This document shows positions 6,715-16,399 of a stretch of DNA of 21,579 nucleotides, piece by piece. Each line of letters starts with the position of its first letter. Within the stretch, counting starts at the first letter, position 1. The translations under genes and the position numbers were made by a program. The notes under the pieces are model-generated. The model searched no databases and had not been told where the DNA came from. It worked only from the letters and a program-made list of their open reading frames with translations. Source of the DNA: a virus; IMG/VR virus record IMGVR_UViG_3300042527_001311, positions 1-21,579 of that record; one strand, given 5' to 3'.

Positions 6715-7119
6715 ATGGACGATTTCTGGAACTCCCTCCCCGCCGATGTCGAAGACCTGCGGGACACCCCGCCGGGTCGCTACCGCGGCTTCATGTCGGG
6801 CTACCAGCTCGTGCGCACCGACGACGCCAAGAACTACGCCATCCTCGAGTTCAAGGTGGCGGAGCCCCTCTCGGGTCAGGACATGACGGGCGTCGAGACC
6901 AACCGCCCGCTGCGCTCGGGCCGCCTCTACTTCACCCCGAAGGCGGCGCCCATCTCGAAGCGTTCCCTCAAGAACCTCTTCCCGCAGTGGAACGACGACG
7001 TTCCGTGGAAGGACAACTTCGAGCAGATGGTGGGTACCGAGGCCGTCTTCGAGTACCGTGCCGAGAAGGGCATGAACGGCAAGGAGTACCTCAACGTCAC
7101 CAAGTTCCAGGCGGCGTGA
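6715..7119 (+). CDS. Probable ssDNA-binding protein, DUF669-like, partner of the Sak4-like ATPase
   Basis: ATG 6715 follows GAAAGGA. The 134-aa protein is beta-rich (GRYRGFMSGYQLVRTDDAKN, YAILEFKVAEPL, LYFTPKA) with aromatic and basic residues and a C-terminal strand (EYLNVTKF), as expected for an OB-like fold. Phage Sak4-type ATPases are commonly followed by proteins of this size annotated DUF669 or SSB. The assignment rests on context and strand pattern rather than a diagnostic motif. It is the last gene before the non-coding leader. Confidence 0.55.
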   Translation: MDDFWNSLPADVEDLRDTPPGRYRGFMSGYQLVRTDDAKNYAILEFKVAEPLSGQDMTGVETNRPLRSGRLYFTPKAAPISKRSLKNLFPQWNDDVPWKDNFEQMVGTEAVFEYRAEKGMNGKEYLNVTKFQAA

Positions 7120-7160
7120 CGGGTAGCTAACCCCGTAGGGGCGTGTGGTGGCGCCCTCAA

Positions 7161-7208
7161 GGAGACACATGCATCCCCTCACCTCAGTGCCGGGATGCAC
7201 CTGTCTCC
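7161..7208 (+). promoter_or_regulatory. Strong imperfect hairpin with embedded ribosome-binding site
   Basis: Arms 7161-7177 and 7192-7208 pair as 7 bp (GGAGACA/TGTCTCC), a 2x2 internal loop and 8 bp (TGCATCCC/GGGATGCA), closing a 14-base loop. The left arm begins with GGAG of an AAGGAG site placed for ATG 7169, so folding would hide the start of the mini-ORF. Flanking GGTGG and CCACC could lengthen the stem across a bulge. Confidence 0.65.
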
Positions 7209-7280
7209 ACCACCACCCCTCTCCCACCCTAGCTGCGGTGTGTGATTGAGGGCGAGTGGCGGCGTCCAACAACAGCAAGG

Positions 7281-7317
7281 CAGTACCTTACACCGCGGCC
7301 TCCTTTGGGGGGTACTG
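7281..7317 (+). repeat. Inverted repeat (7-bp arms) before the polymerase region
   Basis: CAGTACC at 7281-7287 and GGTACTG at 7311-7317 are perfect inverse complements around a 23-base centre containing CCGCGG. The element ends 33 bases before ATG 7351 and could be a hairpin in the leader or a dyad for a DNA-binding protein. Confidence 0.5.
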
Positions 7318-7350
7318 TCGCCCGCCACACCCATTCCTCCAGGTGCGCCC

Positions 7351-8322
7351 ATGCTCCTTCTTCTCGATTACCCCAGCATCACCGAGATCAAGGCAGGGCT
7401 GCCCATCGCCGGCTACCCGCGGGGCATCCTCGACATCTGCCGGCGCTACAGCGACATCCCCGATCCCCAGTTCGTCACCCTCTTCCCCGACCCCCCGCGC
7501 TTCAACAACCCCTCCTCCTACTTCCACCCGCGCAAGGAATGCCCGGACGCGGAGGCGGCCAACCCCCTCCACAAGCAGCTAGGCTACCTGCGCTCCACCT
7601 ACCTCCCCCACTACGAGGAGGCGCGCCGGCGCTGCAGGGAAGCCCCCCTGGTGGTGGCCATGGGTGACCTCTCCCTCTGGGCCCTCACGGGGGAGCGCAT
7701 GCTCGACCACCGGGGCACCATCTGCTACTGGGATGGCCTGCGCATCATCCCCACGCACCACCCCCGCGCCATCATCAAGGACCACTCCCTCCTGCCCGTC
7801 CTCGCCATGGACCTGCGCAAGGCCTGGCAGGAATCCCGCAAGCCCCACAGCGTATTCCCCCGCCGCACCATCCACATCGTGGAGAGCGTGCGCGACATGG
7901 AGCGGGCCACCAAGGACATCCTCGCCGCGGGCCGCTTTGCCTTCGACATCGAGACCTCCAAGGGCCAGATCACCATGATCTGCTTTGCCCTCTCCTCCTC
8001 CCGAGTCTACGTCGTCCCCATCTTCAACCCCACCAACTGCTGGTCGGAGGAGGACGAGGTGCATATCTGGGCCCACATCCAGATCCTCATGGCCTCGCCC
8101 TGCGTCAAGATCGCACACAACGCCGTCTACGACCTCACCTACCTCGAGGCCGCCGGGATCCACACCAGGTTTCCCGTTGACGATACAATGTTACTCAGCC
8201 ATAGTAACGAGATAGAGTGGCAGAAGTCCTTGGGATTCCTGGGCTCCATCTACTGCAACGAAAAATCATGGAAGCTGATGCGCGTGGGAAAGGTGAAAGA
8301 TCGAAACAAGAAAGATGAATAA
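7351..8322 (+). CDS. N-terminal part of a split DNA polymerase: UDG-like domain plus incomplete 3'-5' exonuclease
   Basis: ATG 7351 follows an AGGTG site; an upstream TTG would add residues of no family character. Residues 1-158 resemble a family 4/5 uracil-DNA glycosylase (MGDLSLWALTGE, PTHHPRAII). A family A proofreading exonuclease follows: Exo I FDIETS (D199, E201) and Exo II HNAVYDLTYL (H256, D261), then DDTMLLSH. The protein ends shortly after SLGFLGSIY, without Exo III (YxxxD), which is found at the start of the gene at 8785. The last 50 or so codons lie in a GC-poor patch and end in a lysine-rich, unrelated-looking tail. The exonuclease should need the other polypeptide to be complete. 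Confidence 0.8.
   Translation: MLLLLDYPSITEIKAGLPIAGYPRGILDICRRYSDIPDPQFVTLFPDPPRFNNPSSYFHPRKECPDAEAANPLHKQLGYLRSTYLPHYEEARRRCREAPLVVAMGDLSLWALTGERMLDHRGTICYWDGLRIIPTHHPRAIIKDHSLLPVLAMDLRKAWQESRKPHSVFPRRTIHIVESVRDMERATKDILAAGRFAFDIETSKGQITMICFALSSSRVYVVPIFNPTNCWSEEDEVHIWAHIQILMASPCVKIAHNAVYDLTYLEAAGIHTRFPVDDTMLLSHSNEIEWQKSLGFLGSIYCNEKSWKLMRVGKVKDRNKKDE
8177..8208 (+). promoter_or_regulatory. Candidate promoter overlapped by a 19-bp dyad
   Basis: TTGACG at 8177-8182 and CATAGT at 8200-8205 are separated by 17 bases and match the -35 and -10 boxes at 5/6 and 4/6 positions. A perfect dyad, GTTACT and AGTAAC around seven bases (8190-8208), covers the spacer and the -10 box, as an operator would. 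It lies inside coding sequence in a GC-poor patch, upstream of the genes at 8315, 8631 and 8785. The call is pattern-based only. Confidence 0.35.
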
Positions 8323-8638
8323 GAGACACGAGCAAATCCTTCTTCTCGATTGGGACACCTTCCGATACGAACTCGCTCCTGAGGAGCGACAACGTCCTCT
8401 TCAACCCGAAGAGCGCCTCTTCCTCGCCGTCATCATGCAGGCAGTGGACGACGCCACCTCCCCCACCCCCTCCATCGCTCGAGACCAGGCGCGCGGCGTT
8501 ATCTTCACCTCTTCGGCCACCCCCCTCAAGGACATGTGCGACCTGCTCGACATCAACTACGACTACTTCAAGCGGGCCGTCACCACCCTCATCAAGGAGG
8601 GCCGCACCGTCCGCCGGGCGGACACCTCTGGTGCCTGA
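8315..8638 (+). CDS. Small phage replication-region protein with HTH-like segment, 107 aa
   Basis: It starts eight bases before the stop of the exonuclease gene. The sequence has an acidic Trp-containing start (LLLDWDTFRYELAPEERQRPL), a helix (EERLFLAVIMQAVDDA), then a segment that could form a helix-turn-helix (LKDMCDLLDINYDYFKRAVTTLI). Free-standing proteins of this kind, ending in a CDxLxLxxxxxxRxxxxL-type helix pair, recur in phage early regions. It shows no homing-endonuclease or transposase motif, so it is not an obvious mobile insert even though it lies inside the split polymerase. Function unknown. Confidence 0.6.
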   Translation: MNKRHEQILLLDWDTFRYELAPEERQRPLQPEERLFLAVIMQAVDDATSPTPSIARDQARGVIFTSSATPLKDMCDLLDINYDYFKRAVTTLIKEGRTVRRADTSGA

Positions 8639-8864
8639 CTACGCACCGCCCCCGCTCCTCTTCATCACCTTCACCTCCGAGGGCATGCTTGCCAACGTAG
8701 TCCTGCAGGGTAACCTTACGCGCATCCCCCTCGCGCGCAGCCACGCCCTCGCCCTCCTCGTCCAACTCTCCCACGCCCTGGAGCATGACCTTGCGCACTC
8801 TCCATACCGACAACCTGCCCACGATGGACCTGCCCCTCCAGCAGATGGTCTACAACGGCCTTGA
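8631..8864 (+). CDS. Hypothetical protein, 77 aa, between the polymerase halves
   Basis: The product begins MPDYAPPPLLFITFTSEGML and contains NVVLQGNLTRIPLARSHALALLVQLSHALEHDL in total, a strand-then-helix pattern that looks genuine up to about codon 52. The remaining codons overlap the polymerase gene by 80 bases and are Pro/Ala-rich, as expected of a frame riding on another gene. No recognised motif. It may serve mainly to couple translation of the polymerase, whose own ribosome site is poor. Confidence 0.5.
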   Translation: MPDYAPPPLLFITFTSEGMLANVVLQGNLTRIPLARSHALALLVQLSHALEHDLAHSPYRQPAHDGPAPPADGLQRP

Positions 8865-11061
8865 CGGGATGCTCACCCAGGAGGTGTTCGCGGCCATCCA
8901 GCCCAACCCCACCTACGAGTTCGAGCGAGCCCTCCTCCCCCTCGTCATCACCCTCATGGAGAGGGGCATCCTCATCGACACCACGAAGCGCGACGCCATG
9001 GTGGAGCACCTTCAGCAGCGCCTGGACAAGATCCGCGTCAACTTCGACGCCATATGCCAGGGCGTGTGGGACAAGAAGTTCAACCCGCGCAGCTACCTCC
9101 AGCTCCAGGAACTCCTCTACAAGCGCCTCTACCTCCCCGAGATCATCGTCTCGAAGAAGGGCGAGAAGAAGGTCTCCACCGACCGGGACACCCTCGAGCG
9201 CCTGCACCGCGAGTACGTGCGCGCCATGCCCATCACCTCCCACCTCCTTGCGATGCGCGACCTCGAGAAGACCATCGACACCCTCACCAAGACCCTCTCC
9301 CCCTCCGGGCGCTGGCACGCCAACTTCAACATCGGGGGCACCGACACCGGGCGCTGGTCGAGCAGCGAGCACCCCTTCGGGTGGGGCTCCAACCTCCAGA
9401 ACATCGACGACTACATCCGCCGCATCTTCATCCCCGACCCCGGCCACATCTTCTTCAACTGCGACCAGCAGGGCGCCGAGGCCCGCGTCGTAGGCTACCT
9501 CTCGGGGGACGAAGGCTACATCAAGGCCATCGAGTCGGGGGACGTTCACACCATGGTGGCCGCCATGGTCTTCGGCTTCGAGCCCAAGCGCGAACTCGCC
9601 GACCGCAAGTATTACCGCGAGATGTCCTACCGCGACATCGCCAAGCGCGCCGCGCACGGTTGCCTCACCTCCGACCACGAGGTCCTGACCCCCTCCGGGT
9701 GGCAACCCATCAACACCATCGAGGTTGGGATGCGCGTCGCCTGCTGGGACACCGACGGATCCATCTCCTTCCAGCCCACCTTGGGGGTGACCAGCTTCCT
9801 CTACGAGGGAACCCTCCACCAGTTCGAGGGCACGGCCTATTCCCTCCTTGCCACCCACGATCACCGGATGCCCTACACCACCGACAACAAGTTCAAGGTG
9901 GCACCCGCCGAAGCCCTCCCCTCCTCCGCCCGCCTGCCCGTGGCCGGCCACTATGTCGGGGGCCAGCAGACCGTCACCCCCCTGGAGGCAAGGCGCATTG
10001 CCGCCCTGCAAGCCGACGGCAGCAGCACCTCGGGCAACCTCCGCTTCCACCTCAAGAAGCCGCGCAAGATCAAGCGGGTTGAACTCCTCTTCGGCCCCCA
10101 AAACTGGGTGCCGGACAGCAAGGGCGCAAAGTCCTGCACCATCTCCCGCACTGTATTCAACCCCGATGGCTTCAAGCTGCCCGGCCCCTACCTCTTGGGG
10201 TGGTCCCGCGAAGCCCTCGAGGCATGGCTCGATGAGACCCGCCATTGGGATTCCCACGTGGGCAAGACCCATGTCAGCTTCCACAGCGTCCGCAAGGAAA
10301 CCATCGACTGGTACCAGACCATCGCCGCCCTTTGCGGGAAGGGAACCACCTACCAGGGAACCACCCTCAGTGGCTTTGGCAGCATCGTCCACAAGGCCAA
10401 CCTCAACAGGCGCACTCGAGCCAACTTGGCCCACATGAAGGTCACCAAGATCCCCACTGAGGGGACGCCAGTGCACTGCCTCACCGTGCCCACCTCCTAC
10501 TTCCTGGTGCGGCGCAACAACAAGATCATGGTCACAGGCAACAGCAACTACGGGGGCACCGCGCGCACCATCGCCACCGTCCTCAAGGTGGAAATCAAGG
10601 TCATCGAGGAGTTCCAGCGGCGCTACTTCAAGGCCTTCCCCAACATCTACAAGTGGCAGGTGTGGGTAGCCCAGCAGATACAATCGAAGCACTACATGGT
10701 TACGCCCTTTGGCCGGCGCCGCAACTTCTGGGGTAACCCCAAGGACGACGCCACCATCCGCGCGGCCATCGCCTTCGTCCCCCAAAGCACCGTGGGCGAC
10801 CTCACCTCCCGTGGCCTACTCGCGCTGCACACCACGCTGCCCGACGTGCAGGTCCTCAACAACATCCACGACGCCGCCTTCGGGCAGATCCCCCTTCACC
10901 TGAAGGACACCCTCATCCCCCAGATCATCCAGACCCTCACATATCCCTTGCAGGTCAAGGACATCTGGGGTAACATTCGGGAGATGCTAATCCCTTGGGA
11001 GTGCCAGGTTGGCATGAACTGGGGGAAGCGGAAGAAGGACAACCCGGATGGACTCGCCTGA
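8785..11061 (+). CDS. polA: C-terminal part of split family A DNA polymerase, intein-containing precursor
   Basis: The 758-aa precursor starts with Exo III of the proofreading domain (YNGLD, 23-27). It continues with TGRWSS and NLQNI (188-207), motif A (NCDQQGAEARV, catalytic D227) and motif B (RDIAKRAAHG, 283-292). After a 294-residue intein (293-586) motif B resumes with SNYGG. GRRRNFWG and motif C (IHDAAF, D696) follow. Spliced length would be 464 aa. Motif C has Ala where Pol I enzymes usually have Glu, and the Phe762-equivalent of E. coli Pol I is His291. The start is uncertain because GGAG is only one base from ATG 8785. With the protein at 7351 it would form the replicative polymerase. 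Confidence 0.88.
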   Translation: MTLRTLHTDNLPTMDLPLQQMVYNGLDGMLTQEVFAAIQPNPTYEFERALLPLVITLMERGILIDTTKRDAMVEHLQQRLDKIRVNFDAICQGVWDKKFNPRSYLQLQELLYKRLYLPEIIVSKKGEKKVSTDRDTLERLHREYVRAMPITSHLLAMRDLEKTIDTLTKTLSPSGRWHANFNIGGTDTGRWSSSEHPFGWGSNLQNIDDYIRRIFIPDPGHIFFNCDQQGAEARVVGYLSGDEGYIKAIESGDVHTMVAAMVFGFEPKRELADRKYYREMSYRDIAKRAAHGCLTSDHEVLTPSGWQPINTIEVGMRVACWDTDGSISFQPTLGVTSFLYEGTLHQFEGTAYSLLATHDHRMPYTTDNKFKVAPAEALPSSARLPVAGHYVGGQQTVTPLEARRIAALQADGSSTSGNLRFHLKKPRKIKRVELLFGPQNWVPDSKGAKSCTISRTVFNPDGFKLPGPYLLGWSREALEAWLDETRHWDSHVGKTHVSFHSVRKETIDWYQTIAALCGKGTTYQGTTLSGFGSIVHKANLNRRTRANLAHMKVTKIPTEGTPVHCLTVPTSYFLVRRNNKIMVTGNSNYGGTARTIATVLKVEIKVIEEFQRRYFKAFPNIYKWQVWVAQQIQSKHYMVTPFGRRRNFWGNPKDDATIRAAIAFVPQSTVGDLTSRGLLALHTTLPDVQVLNNIHDAAFGQIPLHLKDTLIPQIIQTLTYPLQVKDIWGNIREMLIPWECQVGMNWGKRKKDNPDGLA
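9661..10542 (+). mobile_element. Intein in PolA motif B (294 aa) with degenerate LAGLIDADG region
   Basis: The intein begins with Cys1 (CLTSDHEVLTPSGW) right after the HG of motif B and ends VTGN, followed by Ser as first C-extein residue. Block B has ATHDH (64-68), and the C-terminal blocks read VHCLTVPTSYFLVRRN then IMVTGN. The centre contains IAALQADG (113-120), a LAGLIDADG-like motif, and EALEAWLDETRHWDS (184-198), a likely second, eroded copy. Removing it restores RDIAKRAAHG-SNYGG exactly. The penultimate residue is Gly instead of the more usual His. GC content matches the host gene (37 of 60 in one line counted by hand), suggesting long residence. Confidence 0.92.
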
Positions 11062-14967: not shown

Positions 14968-15198
14968 TTAATCCTTCCTTCTCCCCGAGGGGCTAATGGG
15001 CCAACTCTTGCGCTGGGGCCCGGTCTTCTTGGCGGCCATCGTAGCCTTCTGGGCGGGGGTCATCTTTGCGGCAGCAGCGGCGGGCCGGCAGGCAGGGTAA
15101 CCGCGCTTGCCCTTCTCGGCACCGCTGCGGCCACACTCCTTGCCCGTCTTCACGTCAACCCACTTCTCCCCGAACCACTTGCCCAGGCCGCCCTTCAC
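14968..15198 (-). CDS. Small basic phage protein with GLGKWFGEKWVD motif, 76 aa (GTG start)
   Basis: GTG 15198 overlaps the stop of the intein-bearing gene as GTGA. The product begins VKGGLGKWFGEKWVDVKTG, followed by ECGRS and GYPACRP, then an Ala/Lys-rich tail (MTPAQKATMAAKK). The G(L)xKWFxEKWVD start and CGRS/YPxCxP cysteines mark a small protein family of phages and some large viruses, often encoded near DUF6321-like and YPSAYAN proteins as here. The two cysteines may bind metal. Function unknown. Confidence 0.66.
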   Translation of the reverse strand: MKGGLGKWFGEKWVDVKTGKECGRSGAEKGKRGYPACRPAAAAAKMTPAQKATMAAKKTGPQRKSWPISPSGRRKD

Positions 15199-16145
15199 TT
15201 CTTCTTCACGCGGTTGTCCGCGCCTCCCCACGTCCCGCCCTTCTTCTTGTACTCCTTGGCAGCCCACGCATTTGCGTAGGCGCTGTTTCCCGTCACGCAC
15301 ACGACTTTGTCTTGGAGCATTACCCAAGTTCCATGTTCAGTTTCGGGGCACCATACAGGTTGAGTAAGAGCGGGCCGCACGTGCAAATTCTGGGTATTGT
15401 GTGTTCGCTTCCCACGAATTAAAGTGGCACCTTTGATGTCTTCTGTCTTTTGGTACATGGACACATAGTATCCGTTGCAGAAAGCTGCCAGTACTGCTGC
15501 GTAATAATGGTTGAGATTCTTCTGCGTAAACCCAAAAGTTCTTCCATCCCGAATAGCTGATTCTCCTTGGTCACAACCATCATAGATTATTGCGGAGGCC
15601 AAGAATACTTCACGTTGGTCGGGAGTCATTTCAAGGACCGCAGATACCCAATCTTGATGCTTGTGCCAAGACTTCCCTTCAAATCCAGATCCAGCCAATG
15701 GGCGTCCACACCAAACCAAATCCATGTGTGTGTTGAGGTTTTCGGTGAGAATGAGTTGCCTATCTAGAAAGCGAATACCCGGTGTCCCCTTGGGTCCAGG
15801 TTTACCTCCAGTACTAAGCTCTCGCTCAACCACCCAAGAATGTCCTGGGGTACACACTAAACTAAACCCAGTCTTCTTGTACATTTCTACCGTTGGAGCT
15901 TCGTCGAAAGTGTGGACTTGGACAAGCTTGCTCCATACGAGGTGATCAGTACCAATGTCATACGCCAAAACAAATTTGCGGATACCCTGAGCCAAACTGT
16001 CCTGAAGTTCTTCACAGGTAGCAAGCCCTTCTGGAGTCACCGCCAAGGAATTTAGAGGTACGCACGGGTATACATCAAACTTCTGCTTGGCCGCCGCCTT
16101 CGTGGCAGCCCACAGCTTGGGGTTCTTGGGGGTTGACTTGGCCAT
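15195..16145 (-). CDS. YPSAYAN small basic protein precursor interrupted by an intein
   Basis: ATG 16145 is read by TGATG coupling with the upstream gene. Of 316 residues, 27 N-terminal residues (starting MAKSTPKNPKLWAATK and ending KFDVYP) and 29 C-terminal residues (SAYANAWAAKEYKKKGG, then RVKKK) join after removal of the intein. The joined product is a 56-aa lysine-rich protein with a KFDVYPSAYANAWA core. This core is known from small phage and virus proteins of unknown role. The extein is 4.6 times shorter than its intein, a very uneven pair. Neighbours are similar small basic proteins. Confidence 0.82.
   Translation of the reverse strand: MAKSTPKNPKLWAATKAAAKQKFDVYPCVPLNSLAVTPEGLATCEELQDSLAQGIRKFVLAYDIGTDHLVWSKLVQVHTFDEAPTVEMYKKTGFSLVCTPGHSWVVERELSTGGKPGPKGTPGIRFLDRQLILTENLNTHMDLVWCGRPLAGSGFEGKSWHKHQDWVSAVLEMTPDQREVFLASAIIYDGCDQGESAIRDGRTFGFTQKNLNHYYAAVLAAFCNGYYVSMYQKTEDIKGATLIRGKRTHNTQNLHVRPALTQPVWCPETEHGTWVMLQDKVVCVTGNSAYANAWAAKEYKKKGGTWGGADNRVKKK
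15285..16064 (-). mobile_element. AT-richer 260-aa intein in the YPSAYAN protein
   Basis: The intein starts with Cys1 (CVPLNSLAVTPEGL) after YP and ends VTGN before Ser-Ala-Tyr. Block B reads LVCTPGHSWVVE (69-80). The C-terminal blocks include VWCPETEHGTWVMLQDK then VVCVTGN. The middle holds LASAIIYDG (155-163), resembling one degenerate LAGLIDADG motif. Two 60-base lines counted by hand contain 26 and 29 G/C, against 40 in a line of the nearby fusion gene, so the element looks recently acquired. Codon use differs visibly from its exteins. Confidence 0.9.
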
Positions 16146-16399
16146 CAGCACCGCCACGCGCGCAGGGATTTATTGACTCGGGAGTTGGGGTCGTTAGCCG
16201 TTTCCTTGCTGGTGAGCTTCTTCTTTAACCCTTTCATGCGGGCACAGAAGCTATCCCGGCGGGGACCACCCTCGGGCTGCGGGGCCTTCAGGCCGGGCTT
16301 GCCGGGGTTGGCCCTGTTGTAGGAGGCGCGCCCCTTGGCGTTGAGGCCGCCCGCTTCGGACTTCCCCTCCTTGCGCTGCCACGCGGGTGTCTTAGCCAT
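16145..16399 (-). CDS. DUF6321-like small basic phage protein, 84 aa
   Basis: ATG 16399 follows GGAG by seven bases and overlaps the phosphoesterase stop by eight. The sequence has the full family pattern: AWQRKEGKSEAGGLNAKGR, SYNRANPG, LKAPQPEGGPRRDSFCARM, KKKLTS, and NDPNSRVNKSLRAW. Many tailed phages and some large viruses carry it, and it is usually in the late region. The function is not known; the charge suggests DNA or virion association. An upstream in-frame start would overlap the phosphoesterase far too much. Confidence 0.78.
   Translation of the reverse strand: MAKTPAWQRKEGKSEAGGLNAKGRASYNRANPGKPGLKAPQPEGGPRRDSFCARMKGLKKKLTSKETANDPNSRVNKSLRAWRC

Follow-up and report, generated by a model that had tools for sequence, protein, structure and literature searches.

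The 231-nt gap (7120–7350) that precedes the polymerase gene in the IMG/VR virus record analyzed here, a stretch of 21,579 nt that we call the window, contains one RNA motif twice in tandem, as copies A (7139–7216) and B (7232–7328), each of which is a three-stem H-type pseudoknot whose pairing has been retained by compensatory changes in about 30 related viral contigs. The fold, strand, tandem nature, conservation and position of this structure are well supported, and the RNA probably controls how the downstream polymerase gene is expressed, perhaps as an operator for a phage protein, in the manner of the gp32 and gp43 operators of T4. In these uncultivated phages no part of the polymerase locus is better conserved than the motif, which is also found ahead of an initiator gene in a different phage, and it is a concrete RNA, with predicted pairs and natural variants, for testing whether replication-gene RNA operators are widespread in phages. 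To our knowledge, nearly all that has been worked out in detail about autogenous leader-RNA control of replication proteins in phages comes from T4-like phages.

Results

A tandem pseudoknot in the polymerase leader

The gap, whose length of 231 bases is confirmed from the first-pass annotation, is flanked upstream by a small gene and downstream by the exonuclease half of a DNA polymerase of family A (Table 1). The small gene returned no family match of its own, and its product is a putative SSB, an assignment made through the weak matches of distant homologues. The feature that first drew attention to the gap was a 15-bp imperfect hairpin at 7161–7208 that was thought to sequester a ribosome site. 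The hairpin exists, and an inverted-repeat search places its arms at 7161–7182 and 7187–7208 around a 4-nt loop, though these 22-nt arms are 82% complementary and so form 18 pairs rather than 15. It is also only P3 of the pseudoknot in copy A, since a covariance model (R1) and a pattern built on P4 and P2 both recover A as the motif, and the second copy downstream had been overlooked. The GGAG within the supposed ribosome site is conserved as a strand of P3, not as a start site.

Each copy is built from P4 (GGGYG/CRYCC), a 1-nt loop, P2 (GYGGYRG/CYRCCRC) and the hairpin P3. The stems cross and covary as in an H-type pseudoknot, with P4 crossing P2 and P1 crossing P3/P2, and in all copies L1 is 1 nt, L2 is 0 nt and P3 lies within L3. 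Copy A reads GGGCG-U-GUGGUGG-CGCCC-UCAA-GGAGACA...UGUCUCC-A-CCACCAC, with its parts in the same order as in B, and the repeat within CCACCAC leaves a 3-nt uncertainty in the register of its P2 3' strand. In copy B an upstream strand, P1, additionally pairs with the P3 loop; for copy A, 6-bp complements in the P1 role occur in L027 (UCCCCU/AGGGGA) and L043 (CUGAGG/CCUCAG) and none in the window, and the level expected by chance is similar.

Table 1. Positions of the motif copies, their strands and the flanking genes in the window
Feature	Coordinates	Strand	Evidence or remarks
Putative single-strand DNA-binding protein, upstream gene	6715..7119	+	Distant homologues in same place; weak PHROG 378 / DUF669
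Motif copy A, whole	7139..7216	+	R1 match 7139-7213, E=0.0017; folding z=-4.8
A P4 5' strand GGGCG	7139..7143	+	P4 predicted by non-pseudoknot folding program; 85/85 cells paired (A + B copies)
A P2 5' strand GTGGTGG, within P4 loop	7145..7151	+	Partner CCACCAC 7210-7216; P2 117/117 cells Watson-Crick
A P4 3' strand CGCCC, then L3 TCAA (7157-7160)	7152..7156	+	Curated alignment, folding
A P3 hairpin, feature first noticed	7161..7208	+	Inverted repeat
A P2 3' strand CCACCAC	7210..7216	+	R1 model, curated alignment; register 7207-7213 possible too
Motif copy B, whole	7232..7328	+	Covariation in alignment A2; R1 89.4 bits
B P1 5' strand GCTGCGGTGT	7232..7241	+	P1 95.7% paired; double-sided changes in 8/10 pairs
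B P4 5' strand GGGCG	7250..7254	+	Partner 7263-7267; C-G / U-A exchange, 7 and 7 of 14 sequences
B P2 5' strand GTGGCGG	7256..7262	+	Partner 7322-7328, 97.9% paired
B P4 3' strand CGTCC, then A-rich L3 AACAACAGCAA (7268-7278)	7263..7267	+	B alignment
B P3 5' strand GGCAGTACC	7279..7287	+	Partner 7311-7319; double-sided changes in 6/9 pairs
B P1 3' strand ACACCGCGGC, within P3 loop	7290..7299	+	B alignment
B P3 3' strand GGTACTGTC	7311..7319	+	B alignment
B P2 3' strand CCGCCAC	7322..7328	+	End 22 nt upstream of polymerase ATG
Exonuclease half of family A DNA polymerase, downstream gene	7351..8322	+	PHROG 17, PF01612

That A and B are copies of one motif rests on searches as well as on folding. 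R1 was trained on nine long-L3 B copies only, with P2 and P3 as the modeled pairs, and it ranks A as the second-best match in the window (E = 0.0017, unfiltered) and also finds the A copies of L027, L041, L109, L093, L083, L043 and L007 (E 0.0004–0.023). The pattern, made up of P4, the P2 5' strand and AAGG, has exactly two matches in the window, A and B, and none in 100 shuffles. The unit 7139–7213 has a folding energy of −41.5 kcal/mol, whereas its shuffles average −25.8 (z = −4.8; 0 of 200 shuffles), and the whole 241-nt leader is only moderately above shuffles (z = −2.2), the weaker value arising because the folding program cannot draw pseudoknots. The minimum-energy fold pairs the ribosome site of the polymerase with the GGGCG of copy A; this pairing is not seen in the sequences of the relatives, and we rejected it. 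The polymerase start region folds no better than shuffles.

Covariation among related phages

Fourteen versions of copy B were aligned, with P1 in columns 17–26/79–88, P4 in 35–39/48–52, P2 in 41–47/114–120 and P3 in 64–72/103–111. In the uncorrected MAFFT alignment 93.8% of the cells are paired, and 17 of the 31 pairs have changed on both sides. The covariation score is 0.385 compared with 0.216 ± 0.014 for shuffles, none of 500 shuffles matches this score or the observed pairing or double-change values, and sliding the 3' strands by 1–3 columns lowers pairing to 35–63%. The test gives the same result without P4, in which only one or two of the five pairs are variable and only one changes on both sides. 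When all column pairs were scanned without bias, P1 was the top helix, and the top 30 among 7,739 column pairs included 7 of the 31 structural pairs, the remainder of that list carrying ancestry signal also.

For a curated alignment, P3 was corrected by hand, and the A copies and the motif from a further phage (L196, described below) were added; the paired cells are then 126/128 for P1, 85/85 for P4, 117/117 for P2 and 146/152 for P3. This alignment contains 30 G·U against 2 A·C pairs, which points to the + strand transcript as the functional RNA, and we rejected the reverse strand. The sample amounts to about 14 distinct B and 8 A sequences, which are not independent because nearly all of them come from one related clade. 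A lack of conserved pairing in relatives had been named beforehand in the first-pass annotation as grounds for abandoning the element; the relatives keep covarying pairs, and the proposal of a functional RNA structure stands.

Position and surroundings of the motif in relatives

Some 45 contigs that share the gene order of the window came out of three protein-based scans of viral contigs, and 27 distinct gap versions were extracted from them. The gap is 68 to 691 nt long in these relatives and contains, in various combinations, elements A and B, a two-hairpin element C, plain GC-rich hairpins, tRNA-Leu and small ORFs. The A+B region of the window shares 89.5% identity with that of L043, compared with 59.6% for the first 250 nt of the polymerase and 69% for the ssb-like gene. 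In a tree of the exonuclease half the A+B carriers sit on four well-separated lineages (the window, L109, the L043 group and L027/L041), and their near relatives differ, with C and a tRNA beside the L043 group and C+B or B beside L027. Strong constraint combined with recombinational exchange of the slot, or else loss from an A+B ancestor, would explain this scatter. Many relatives have B alone, without A, and some close relatives have two hairpins, a tRNA or a plain hairpin in place of the motif; in the 61- and 60-kb relatives the motif is restricted to this one locus.

In all versions from the clade P2 ends 18–23 nt before the next start codon, whether this belongs to polA or to an inserted ORF, and the fold therefore ends just short of the ribosome site. 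The Shine-Dalgarno sequence is covered by no conserved pairing in the relatives, and neither a terminator nor a promoter was found on the + strand. The neighbors of B vary: L010 and L045 have an ORF and element C between ssb and B, with B still adjoining polA, and in L040, L052 and L106 an ORF lies between B and polA, with B adjoining ssb. L044 and L099 have element C and a tRNA-Leu(CAA) (L044:2511–2595, L099:2305–2389) after the ssb-like gene, and the last A of the tRNA CCA is the A of the polymerase ATG. A typical hairpin with a T-run comes after the ssb-like gene in the distant relatives L162, L167, L168 and L173.

The slot between ssb and pol is also an insertion hot spot, with small ORFs from several unrelated families (L010, L040, L052, L100, L102, L105 and L106). 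The hairpins of element C are GUCACC-UGCCCAGU-GGUGA and GGGGG-CGGCAU-CCCCC, the UGCC and GGCA of their loops possibly kissing, and the element lies directly 3' of the ssb-like gene in the gaps of L094, L030, L052, L010, L024, L063, L074 and L044. A different possible pseudoknot occupies the slot in L150 (2500–2610) and L152 (365–465), formed by UUGYCC/GGRCAA and by GUCG with CGAC in the loop of a GGGGG/CCCCC hairpin.

Occurrence beyond the clade

A pattern scan of all viral contigs matched 44, and nearly all the real ones belong to this clade; in 12 other matching contigs outside it the partner strands of P2 and P3 are absent. The match in L123 lies inside an ORF and is due to chance, and in L212 the P2 partner arises by G·U-tolerant chance and the arrangement does not match. 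The motif does occur in an apparently unrelated tailed phage, L196 (3190–3299), where the parts that the search pattern did not specify are present as well: P2 3' CCGCCGC (7/7), P3 GGCCGGAU/AUCCUGCC (7/8) and P1 GUGCGUC/GACGCAC (7/7). R1 scores this copy at E = 4e-7, a value inflated by pattern preselection. Here the motif lies in the gap upstream of a replication-initiation O-like/primosomal gene (PHROG 6451/678), about 140 nt before the start of that gene and 38 nt before a small possible ORF, and the gene upstream of it is no recognized ssb. The motif is absent from relatives of L196 found through the initiator gene, and blastn did not detect the motif in GenBank phages or plasmids. The same phage also has a subthreshold match to the type II hammerhead (L342:5703–5777; 25.3 bits, E = 0.22, cut-off 37).

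No entry of Rfam 15 matched the window at gathering score, and at E ≤ 10 nothing credible appeared, weak mir and lncRNA matches being noise. The STAXI model (RF01728) matched none of eight records at E ≤ 10, and blastn of the leader against GenBank phages and plasmids gave no meaningful match. Run with strict filters and no positive control on 398 and 296 bacterial genomes from two phyla, R1 found none in one set and one marginal match in the other (E = 0.0075), in which the core P4/P2 sequence is absent; this outcome carries little weight. The motif thus looks, on the strength of these searches, like a new and previously uncatalogued family of structured RNA of the cis-acting leader type.

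Discussion

We infer that the motif regulates the gene that follows it, that it does so at the level of translation, and that it has a protein binder. Our leading proposal, to which we give an even chance, is that it is a cis-acting intercistronic tandem pseudoknot that sets translation initiation of the downstream replication gene and is recognized in trans, a phage replication protein being the likeliest binder. In this fold the loop of the 5-bp P4 carries the 5' strand of the 7-bp P2, which can stack directly on P4 and closes around hairpin P3, and in copy B the upstream strand of P1 locks the P3 loop. The folded RNA would then set the translation initiation, and perhaps the stability, of the replication gene, here the polymerase, and recognition by a replication protein would make the control autogenous. 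Candidate binders are the polymerase halves, the putative SSB and Sak4 (PHROG 124); B co-occurs with both divergent types of ssb-like gene (28–38% and about 59% identity to that of the window), which slightly favors the polymerase or a host factor over SSB. The proposal is supported by the covariation, the high identity of the leader with that of L043 and the spacing to the next start codon, by the position of B next to polA in L010 and L045 and by the motif upstream of the replication-initiation gene in L196. Counting against it are the ORF that intervenes between B and polA in L040, L052 and L106, the close relatives that do without the motif, the spacing in L196 and the location of the Shine-Dalgarno site outside the conserved pairing.

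Alternatively, the element may mark an mRNA boundary, as an exonuclease block or processing site between the ssb-like and pol messages that would let SSB be made in excess over polymerase and would stand in for the terminator that distant relatives have after ssb. The contents of the slot are consistent with this, since it holds Rho-independent-looking terminators in those distant relatives, tRNA-Leu in L044 and L099 and GC-rich hairpins elsewhere, and B adjoins ssb rather than pol in three contigs. The window itself, however, has no U-tract after the hairpin and no terminator-like site on the + strand between 6700 and 7700, as expected from the earlier judgment that the hairpin is not a simple terminator. 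A plain hairpin would suffice for a boundary, which leaves the elaborate covarying pseudoknot unexplained, and B is separated from ssb in L010 and L045, while in L196 no ssb is recognized upstream. We rank an mRNA boundary second because the covarying fold, L010, L045 and L196 are unexplained by it, and we consider it unlikely, though by no means negligible. The element may also be a free small RNA, as was suggested at the outset, but the + strand offers neither a promoter nor a terminator for one.

A tandem riboswitch-like sensor that gates polymerase synthesis on binding an ion or a small molecule such as a nucleotide would fit the three-stem H-type topology, which resembles preQ1-II, as well as the tandem copies and the leader position. 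We hold it to be improbable, as few unpaired bases outside the helices are conserved (L3 is UCAA in A and in the B copies of L094 and L052), no Rfam riboswitch matches, and the Shine-Dalgarno site lies outside the conserved structure. Less probable again is a role in DNA replication, either as a fold of single-stranded DNA or as a primer RNA at an origin, even though the element adjoins replication genes in two phage groups and a DNA function has been raised for the similar STAXI motif (PMC2864571). The spacing to the start codon is fixed, the element is a single site inside an operon, and neither the window nor the 61- and 60-kb relatives show an inflection of GC skew at the element, contrary to the early suggestion of a replication origin, though skew tests for origins only weakly in phages. 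The leader-peptide attenuator also suggested then, which would use a 26-codon ORF, is largely refuted by the non-conservation of that ORF in the sequences compared, and we give it almost no credence. Both the ATG-initiated ORF (7169–7249) and its AAGGAG (7159–7164) are present in the window as described, but of the 8 A-bearing versions compared, 5 have no such ATG (L043, L083, L007, L027 and L041, which have ACG or a different loop). In the remaining versions the frame varies, with 8, 26 or 43 codons, L093 and L109 differing in frame; moreover, no terminator is present, and copy B alone is enough in many relatives.

The closest known systems are those of T4, in which SSB and the polymerase are under autogenous control through structured operators upstream of the start codon, the gene 32 pseudoknot and the gene 43 hairpin each being bound by the protein that it regulates (PMC3014915, PMC535899). 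The gene 32 operator spans about 28 nt at a distance of 67 nt before the start of SSB, and its ribosome site is covered by A+U-rich repeats (PMC3014915, PMC535899). As in the gene 32 operators of T4, T2 and RB69, the motif described here is a pseudoknot with coaxially stacked H-type stems that lies in a phage mRNA upstream of the ribosome site and start codon of a replication gene. It differs in its size of about 80–97 nt per copy, its tandem arrangement and its three to four stems, and also in its location 18–23 nt before polA rather than before its own SSB gene, in a GC-rich leader with no UUAAA or other A+U-rich repeats over the ribosome site. The gene 43 operator of T4 and RB69 is a simple 16–18-nt hairpin, with sequence overlapping the ribosome site and no pseudoknot (PMC3014915); like the present motif it is an RNA structure in the leader of a gene for a phage DNA polymerase, though that polymerase belongs to family B and the one here to family A.

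STAXI (RF01728) likewise consists of pseudoknots in tandem, close to genes whose products are SSB and other DNA-handling proteins, and its function is unknown (PMC2864571). It differs from our motif in being found in Enterobacteriales and in having usually three repeats with UUCG loops, and its model finds nothing in the eight records searched here. In topology the motif is like the preQ1-II riboswitch, whose H-type pseudoknot carries an additional hairpin in loop 3. Unlike in preQ1-II, the second stem leaves the Shine-Dalgarno site uncovered and the hairpin loop takes part in a further stem, P1; Rfam scans give no sequence match. It is tempting to see in the motif the founding example of a class of phage regulatory RNA not described before, in the form of a tandem double-pseudoknot module common to unrelated phages and passed between them, which would gate expression of DNA replication genes through a bound replication protein or small ligand, but so broad a reading seems to us doubtful.

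Other features of the window

The polymerase of the window (7351–11061) is split into an exonuclease ORF and a polymerase ORF with a conserved 107-aa ORF (8315–8638) between them, and the arrangement is the same in the relatives L150, L152 and L156. Its polymerase half (8785–11061) contains an apparent intein at 9667–10542, about residues 294–586 (CLTSDHEV...MVTGN|S), whose matches lie in ribonucleotide reductases and other unrelated proteins of phages. Another likely intein (CVPLNSLAVTPEG...VCVTGN|S), judged from its translation only, lies on the − strand at 15195–16157 in a short lysine-rich protein. The region 2150–2450 is a low-complexity, GC-rich stretch in which several frames are open, with alanine-, arginine- or glycine-rich readings, and the local GC skew there becomes positive.
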